Source: Ciborinia camelliae (Eukaryota; Ascomycota; Leotiomycetes; Helotiales; Sclerotiniaceae). Taken from it: 64,000 nucleotides of DNA. Within the stretch, counting starts at the first letter, position 1, and each line of letters opens with the position of its first letter. This document shows, in pieces, positions 36,367-37,803 of this stretch. Under the pieces are notes generated by a model. The model was not told where the DNA came from, searched no databases, and was given only the letters and a program-made list of their open reading frames with translations. Location of the stretch: NCBI GenBank assembly GCA_025890175.1, contig JANPYM010000002.1:2079747-2143746 (forward strand). The letters are read 5' to 3'. The position numbers were made by a program, and so were the translations under genes.

Positions 36367-37145
36367 TGATTGAGTGAGATATGGTAGTTGAAGACTAAGG
36401 GAAATGCGCTTAAATTTGAGTTCAAAAAAACAGGAGGAGAGTAAGGAGGTAAATCCAAACAAAACGTTAGAGATGCGTAGATGTGCTACTAAGCCCTGCG
36501 GCACATATGTGGCTGACTCACTTGCATCTGCTCAAACACATCACCAACAATGCCCTGTAATCCTCTTGAGATTTATTGGATTTAGACTTCAAAGATAAAT
36601 CCTTTCCACCAAACAGTTTGACTTGATTTCTCTCTTCCTGAGCAAGATTAAGACTGTGCCAACTATAGCAGTTTCATACCATTTCAGCCTGATGGTGAAA
36701 TCCCTCCCAACTTATAGAACATCCCCAACCAACCTCTTTAAACCTCTTTCACAAAGAAGTCCAGTCATCAAAAAAGTTTAGGATACTTGCTCATCCTAAT
36801 AAGACTGCACAGGCAGAGAATAACATTCTTTGAGTTATCGATATGATGTTATTATATGTCATGTCAAAATAAGTTATGGTCAAACTCATGATGAACATGG
36901 ACCTGACTGAAAGATAAACTTGGTTTGGTGGGACCCAAGTACCCTGAGCCAGAGTGGACCGAGTGGTAACTTTCTCGCTTACCAGTACTGTAGTATCCAC
37001 TCCACTCTTATAATAAACAAAAGAGAAAAAATCTTCAACAAATGCATTAACATATCAAAAAGACATTATAGACCCCTCAGCCCTTCAAAAAAGAGTCCTA
37101 AAATTACCATTAGATGGCTAAATGACCAAAAATGAAAATATCAGA
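36367..37145. other. Intergenic region between the ML-like gene and the tRNA gene
   Basis: About 780 bases with no supported gene. It holds the promoter of the secreted ML-like gene (transcribed away from the tRNA) and, at its right end, the Pol III terminator of the tRNA. Confidence 0.55.
37128..37138 (-). terminator. Pol III terminator of the split tRNA gene
   Basis: On the minus strand the mature 3' end at 37146 is followed 7 bases later by TTTT (37138-37135) and then TTTTT (37132-37128), the usual Pol III stop. The 57-nt insert inside the gene has no run longer than three T, so transcription could pass through it. Confidence 0.7.
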
Positions 37146-37274
37146 TAGCAAGTCCCAGTTTCTGTCACGTGATGTTAGTATTTTGAATTATTTTTTGAAT
37201 TTGGAGATGAAAGCTTACCGATCTGGGGACCTCCGGGTTATGAGCCCGGCGCGCTTCCACTGCGCCAACTTGCT
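37146..37274 (-). tRNA. Initiator tRNA-Met (CAT) split by an intron in the T-loop
   Basis: Reading the minus strand from 37274, the parts are: acceptor AGCAAGT, TG, D-arm GCGC-AGTGGAA-GCGC, G26, anticodon arm CCGGG-CTCATAA-CCCGG, variable AGGTC, T-stem CCCAG and ATCG of the T-loop. A 57-nt insert follows (37218-37162). Then come AAA, T-stem CTGGG, acceptor ACTTGCT and A73. All stems pair perfectly, and the mature RNA is 72 nt. Initiator features are A1-T72, A54 (ATCGAAA instead of TTCGA) and three G-C pairs at 29-31/39-41. The A box (TGGCGCAGTGG) is intact; the B box is split by the insert. Without the insert removed, no T-arm or acceptor stem can form. Whether this gene makes functional tRNA cannot be told from sequence, but the perfect pairing of the two distant halves argues that it is under selection or recently interrupted. 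Confidence 0.92.
37162..37218 (-). other. mRNA-type intron inside the tRNA gene
   Basis: This 57-nt insert lies between T-loop positions 57 and 58. It begins GTAAGC, contains AATACTAACATC (a perfect TACTAAC branch-point box about 15 nt from the 3' end) and ends ACAG. These are spliceosomal signals like those of protein genes in this window. Nuclear tRNA introns normally sit after position 37 and are cut by the tRNA endonuclease; this position and these borders do not match that. I see no obvious bulge-helix-bulge across the junctions. The insert also carries the palindrome TCACGTGA. Confidence 0.8.
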
Positions 37275-37803
37275 TGTTGTTTGATGAAGGTTCTGCGTGA
37301 TTTTGGATATATATTGGGGAAATTGCAGATGGACCGATTGTGGAAAGAATGAGTCACAGTACAAGAGAATTTTCTCAAATAGGAAAGAGGGGCACCATTC
37401 GGGATCATTTCGGTATATTTTCTTTTGGGTGAGGTGGAACGGACAAAAACTGTAACTGTGTAAGATGACTGTAAGTGCAACATCAAAGGCAAAATTGTGT
37501 GAATGCAATGGATTTTTTGTATCGAGAGCATTTACTCGTTCTTTTCATTCTCAGTTATCTCATGACAAGATAGATATCTGTATCATTTTCTATCTACTCA
37601 GTACAGAATACTACCATACATCAAACCCCCAAACATATAATCGCTAACTTTTTGCATCAGGATATCAAAACATCATAAAGCTCCGTTGCACTCCCCGAGA
37701 ATAATAACAACCAACATGCTATACCAGAAAAACTTTTCACCATTCGTCCTTCTAGATTTGTATACCTCAAGACTCACTCAGAGCCTCTTCATTCACAAGC
37801 ATC
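37275..37803. other. Intergenic region between the tRNA and the LysM gene
   Basis: About 530 bases containing the tRNA 5' flank and the LysM gene 3' flank. Open frames here are short and overlap the tRNA; none is called. Confidence 0.55.

Follow-up and report, generated by a model that had tools for sequence, protein, structure and literature searches.

Background

Introns of tRNAs and introns of mRNAs are conventionally treated as separate entities, with distinct enzymes, distinct sites and a distinct chemistry of removal. Nevertheless, mRNA-type introns are already known in fungal U6, U3 and rRNA genes, those of ascomycete rDNA having reportedly been described by Bhattacharya in 2000. In fission yeast the spliceosome removes an intron from U6, which is a Pol III transcript, and the mRNA-type introns of U6 are thought to have come from reverse splicing (PMC10484740). 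A survey of fungal U3 genes names U3 and U6 as the only small structured RNAs then known to be often interrupted by introns, and it reports for both Sclerotinia sclerotiorum and Botrytis cinerea one U3 copy with an intron and another without it (PMC5832005). In the Sclerotiniaceae, then, a structured RNA can have spliceosomal introns in certain of its copies and lack them in others, the pattern also met here for the tRNA. The spliceosome also removes introns from the Pol I-transcribed rRNA of ascomycete rDNA (PMC8527467). Among tRNAs proper, Cyanidioschyzon merolae possesses atypical introns in the D- and T-arms, one of them in the T-arm at 53/54 (PMC9602550), and the disrupted tRNAs of this organism are described as bulge-helix-bulge (BHB)-mediated (PMC3978253). 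No published case of a tRNA with an mRNA-type, i.e. spliceosomal, intron was found among open-access papers.

Results and discussion

An initiator tRNA gene interrupted in the T-loop

The locus lies on the minus strand of the window, by which we mean the whole 64-kb stretch of DNA from the camellia-blight fungus Ciborinia camelliae that was analysed. Joining 37274-37219 to 37161-37146 produces a 72-nt tRNA-Met(cat) that ARAGORN calls with all arms paired, and the joined exons are identical at 72/72 bases to three uninterrupted initiator tRNA-Met genes of the same genome. The proposal of the first-pass annotation that the two pieces form a complete initiator tRNA once a 57-nt insert is taken out is thereby upheld, as is the dependence of the tRNA call on its removal: the 129-nt genomic form with the insert retained receives no call, and ARAGORN returns zero tRNAs for the whole 64-kb window. 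The Rfam tRNA model gives the locus 24.7 bits, short of its gathering score of 29, with a match that stretches into the insert. The 5' exon (37219..37274; nt 1-56, up to T-loop position 57) is identical to the first 56 nt of the three intact genes, while the 16-nt 3' exon (37146..37161; nt 57-72, from T-loop position 58 to the discriminator) is defined by ARAGORN and by the intact copies. Between them lies the insert (37162..37218), which is missing from the three intact copies and is placed after the 4th base of the T-loop AUCGAAA, i.e. between standard positions 57 and 58. As the junction can be slid by one base, with a G at both places, we fix its position according to the GT-AG rule.

Anatomy of the insert

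Read on the minus strand, the 57-nt insert begins, as had been claimed, with GTAAGC (37213..37218) and ends with CAG (37162..37164), and it contains the branch-site consensus TACTAAC (37174..37180), after which 12 nt follow to the intron end rather than the 15 nt given earlier. The 5' end of the U1 snRNA presumably pairs with this donor through six contiguous pairs, from G-1 to G+5. A palindrome, TCACGTGA, which we take to be of the E-box type, occupies 37165-37172 between the branch site and the 3' splice site.

Both the length of the insert and its spacing after TACTAAC are close to the medians (56 nt and 11 nt, respectively) of 94 further strings in the genome with the pattern GTAAGC/T..TACTAAC..CAG, which are intron-like pattern matches whose reversed-pattern controls gave 16 rows versus 33 and 38 versus 75. 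Even a looser architecture, GTRNGY..CTAAC..YAG over 45-75 nt, is found in just 5 of the 3,963,040 start-by-length combinations on both strands of the window, the insert included. The insert is unusually A-rich, at the 98th percentile of the comparison strings, and is predicted to be unstructured, with a minimum free energy of 0.0; among the 63 comparison strings measuring 50-65 nt, 3 have values that differ from it by no more than 0.5 kcal/mol.

The earlier description of the insert as exactly like the introns of neighboring protein genes is too loose, in that two introns located at protein-alignment gaps in the Tel1 kinase gene of the window use the branch sites GCTAAC and ACTGAC; TACTAAC is shared with a candidate intron at 7002-6955 recognized by its sequence pattern. 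A de novo intron finder applied to ORF pairs gave 12 hits versus 5 and 9 in two fake-signal controls and was not used.

The site of interruption, 57/58, is not the canonical 37/38 position of nuclear tRNA introns, and no bulge-helix-bulge is formed at the insert ends, where 1/4 and 2/4 helix pairs are available in the two junction registers and 3/4 at best under relaxed rules. A search of the genome for a second copy of the insert, in which one candidate was scored and whose initial look skips common words, returned only the insert itself at E values up to 10. An introner or other mobile intron family, which would comprise many near-identical copies, was accordingly set aside. The insert thus combines a donor complementary to U1, a branch consensus at a typical distance from the acceptor, and GT..AG ends, all hallmarks of U2-type introns, and its exact removal restores the product of the exons, namely the tRNA-Met(cat) with 72/72 identity. 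Taken together with the length, the missing BHB and the lack of a second copy, these features bear out the earlier designation of the insert as spliceosome-type, and by anatomy it is very probably a spliceosomal intron.

Initiator copies and other tRNA genes of the genome

The genome searched is the 46.2-Mb, 27-contig assembly that contains the window; a nucleoporin fragment of the window is 99% identical to a C. camelliae protein and shows, in the next named matches, mostly 88-90% identity to Sclerotinia, Botrytis and Monilinia, with two partly covered rows at 84%. A whole-genome DNA search combined with a pattern search allowing up to 3 mismatches recovered four initiator tRNA-Met genes, of which three are uninterrupted. 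A fifth pattern match (C1:1956632), partial and with 3 mismatches, is not a tRNA according to ARAGORN. The first-pass annotation had held that many intact initiator genes coupled with no spliced reads would mark a dead copy; it is the intact-gene half of this pairing that is borne out, and with three such genes the cell need not depend on the interrupted one.

The 3' flank of the interrupted copy aligns with those of two intact copies (scores of 69 versus a shuffle maximum of 44, and 71 versus 53; 200 shuffles each), and its 5' flank matches that of one intact copy (41 versus a shuffle maximum of 33), with no match of the 5' flank to the other two intact copies in local alignments. These matches indicate that the interrupted copy is a diverged paralogue of the intact genes, and by parsimony the insert would have been gained. 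The 3' flank of one intact copy (L002) has in common with the interrupted copy the string CTCTTTTTTGAAGGGCTG (window about 37078-37096, minus strand), which is found some 50 nt beyond the tRNA, much farther out than the first terminator. In another intact copy (L003, on C27) the 3' flank is very A+T-rich compared with the homologous flank of the interrupted copy, for which repeat-induced point mutation could be the cause.

To place the insert among the other tRNA introns of this genome, a tRNA family search was considered that listed 61 matches, with 62 of the 2182 candidates scored. ARAGORN, as run here with introns sought in the anticodon loop only and with several isotype calls plainly misnamed, predicted 68 genes (66 distinct) in those 61 loci, 41 of them with an intron at nt 31-39. 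Long variable loops were drawn for another two genes, 94 and 95 nt in length, which are read as having ordinary anticodon-loop introns. When each sampled intron was shifted by up to 4 nt, GT..AG ends arose for a single 8-nt piece, and none of the sampled tRNA introns looks spliceosomal by these sequence features. A tRNA gene broken in the T-loop would score under the cut-off of the tRNA model, as the interrupted copy itself does; given this and the restriction of ARAGORN to the anticodon loop, the interrupted copy cannot be called the only such gene of the genome.

Transcription signals

Upstream of the tRNA, at -39 to -33 (37307..37313, minus strand), is a TATATAT element that agrees with TATAWAW at 7/7 positions. 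Between -60 and -20 this full score is reached by 15 of 69 other tRNA genes, a score of 6 or 7 by 52 of the 69; the three intact initiator genes score at best 5 to 6 of 7. The TATA-like matches of the 69 genes are mostly located at -65 to -36, with -39 being near the edge of this range. Downstream, the first T4 run, resembling a Pol III terminator, starts 8 nt past the tRNA end (37135..37138); a T4 follows within 100 nt in each of the 69 other tRNA genes, at a median of 10. The locus thus displays the upstream TATA-like element and the T-run terminator expected of an active Pol III gene, as do most of the tRNA genes sampled. Box A is unchanged, given that the exons are identical to those of the intact copies. 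As the insert contains no T4 run, Pol III could read through it; as a sign of Pol III selection this avoidance is weak, with 62 of the 94 comparison strings likewise T4-free.

The intact box B of an active Pol III gene is missing. Matrix scoring places it as GATCG/AAAC, split by the insert into a 5' half at 37219..37223 and another half at 37161-37158. With a matrix built from the 69 tRNA genes, the intact initiator copies score 5.7, which is the lowest value in the set; read across the insert, the box scores -7.7. The best substitute in the gene or in the 100 bp downstream reaches -2.2, a level shared by 6.6 sites per kb of strand across the window, and there is no GWTCRANNC on either strand within 600 bp, where 0.7 would be expected. 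The U6 gene of fission yeast is said to have an intron-borne box B; no equivalent was found in the insert by either the matrix or the GWTCRANNC pattern. The split box B counts against ordinary Pol III expression. Transcription of the locus would require either initiation by Pol III from the TATA element or read-through by Pol II. The latter could originate in a LysM-domain ORF at 38760-37804 (Pfam PF01476, 30 bits versus a cut-off of 20.9), which runs in the same strand direction and ends about 530 bp upstream of the tRNA.

Introns in other structured RNAs of the genome

Both U3 snoRNA genes that were found (C25:446625-446893, minus strand; C26:1271515-1271776, plus strand) appear, from their Rfam matches and the alignment of the two copies, to be interrupted, behind a short first exon, by an mRNA-type intron. 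The putative introns are of 74 nt (GTGAGT..TACTAAC..CAG) and 90 nt (GTAAGC..TACTGAC..CAG), the latter sharing its donor with the tRNA insert. The Rfam U3 match begins in the last intron bases, and a family search therefore misses the first exon. With both U3 genes so equipped, mRNA-type introns in structured RNAs seem to be at home in this genome.

The U6, U2 and SRP RNA genes were considered as further hosts and rejected, their matches spanning the full models at about model length. There is in addition a weak second U6-like match below the cut-off (C6:53104-53206; 29.9 bits), a second, lower-scoring U2 match above it (C12:849625-849824; 69.8 bits), and a pair of SRP RNA matches of equal score and same orientation about 1.5 kb apart (C25:71038-71324 and 72813-73099).

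Spliced precursor or dead copy

The above observations lead us to lean, with limited assurance, to the reading that the spliceosome removes the insert from a precursor, after which the tRNA would fold and have its ends cut. Unblemished exons and splice signals, the TATA element, the terminator and the missing donor intron speak for it, and the broken box B and the three intact copies against it. Also on its side are the typical length and branch spacing of the insert, its lack of predicted structure, the U3 introns of this genome and the spliceosomal removal of introns from U6 and rRNA. Transcription might be started by TFIIIB at the TATA element, together with box A, or alternatively might come as Pol II read-through from the upstream LysM-domain gene. 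The donor would then be recognized by U1, and the branch site likewise recognized, in an A-rich, unstructured insert; the T-arm would be rebuilt by splicing, and the ends would subsequently be cut by RNase P and RNase Z. As for its origin, one copy could have gained the intron, for example by reverse splicing into a tRNA followed by gene conversion. Folding predictions for the unspliced precursor weigh against this reading: the T-arm is disrupted in the best-energy fold (-30.2 kcal/mol), to which a forced cloverleaf is inferior by 1.1 kcal/mol, and the 5' splice site, with a mean pairing probability of 0.51, is half paired. A fuller claim would be that the spliceosome matures a nuclear tRNA, the initiator of all translation, that no tRNA before it was known to have an mRNA-type intron, that it is transcribed from a TATA element without an intact box B, and that part of the initiator tRNA supply is tied to splicing capacity; this claim hangs evenly in the balance.

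The principal alternative, which we regard as possible if rather doubtful, is that a true intron sequence entered one initiator gene and destroyed its box B, and that the locus is no longer transcribed, the three intact genes being sufficient. The fall of the box B score from 5.7 to -7.7, the lack of an extragenic box B within 600 bp and the capacity of three intact copies to supply all initiator tRNA are in keeping with such a dead copy, whereas exons that remain identical at 72/72 bases, perfect splice signals and a retained TATA element and terminator are not. A fresh insertion by reverse splicing would further predict a recognizable donor intron, and none is seen at E values up to 10; that exons and signals are intact despite this is a weak argument against very recent copying of an existing intron, even as a recent insertion could equally explain the intact exons. 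It is very improbable that the tRNA splicing endonuclease cuts the insert out as an unusual tRNA intron, the mode of removal supposed for introns in the T-arm of C. merolae tRNAs: the intron at 53/54 in that organism (PMC9602550) provides a precedent for the arm, but neither junction register offers a BHB, and GTAAGC, TACTAAC and CAG at such distances are rare by chance. Comparably remote is an assembly error, a small transposon or a chance insertion of no relevance to splicing, given that the genome yielded no second copy of the insert, that its ends, compared by eye, are not inverted repeats and have a repeat of at most 1 base, and that its boundaries coincide exactly with GT and AG.

Should the interrupted copy be spliced, the reach of the spliceosome would extend to tRNA genes, and an intron that cuts the promoter within an RNA would not preclude the synthesis of that RNA. 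Even if it is dead, the locus preserves in clean form the arrival of a spliceosome-type intron in a tRNA gene. With three uninterrupted sites available for comparison in this genome, it bears on how introns are gained.

Comparison with known systems

The insert resembles the atypical D- and T-arm introns of C. merolae in being outside 37/38, and differs from them in having full spliceosomal signals and no BHB. With the introns of ascomycete rDNA the spliced-precursor reading has in common the action of the spliceosome on a transcript not made by Pol II, although rRNA is long and transcribed by Pol I. The U6 introns of fission yeast and other fungi are, like the tRNA insert by its anatomy, spliceosomal introns in a short structured Pol III RNA. 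However, U6 is situated at the catalytic core of the spliceosome and thus has a ready route of insertion that a tRNA does not, and the U6 of C. camelliae, unlike the intron-bearing fungal ones, matches its model without a break. The fungal U3 introns are, according to the survey (PMC5832005), likewise canonical spliceosomal introns of a structured RNA that in some genomes vary in presence from copy to copy, as is the case for the tRNA; but they are positioned in the 5' stem-loop and found in the vast majority of the surveyed Pezizomycotina, whereas the insert occupies one copy of one tRNA.
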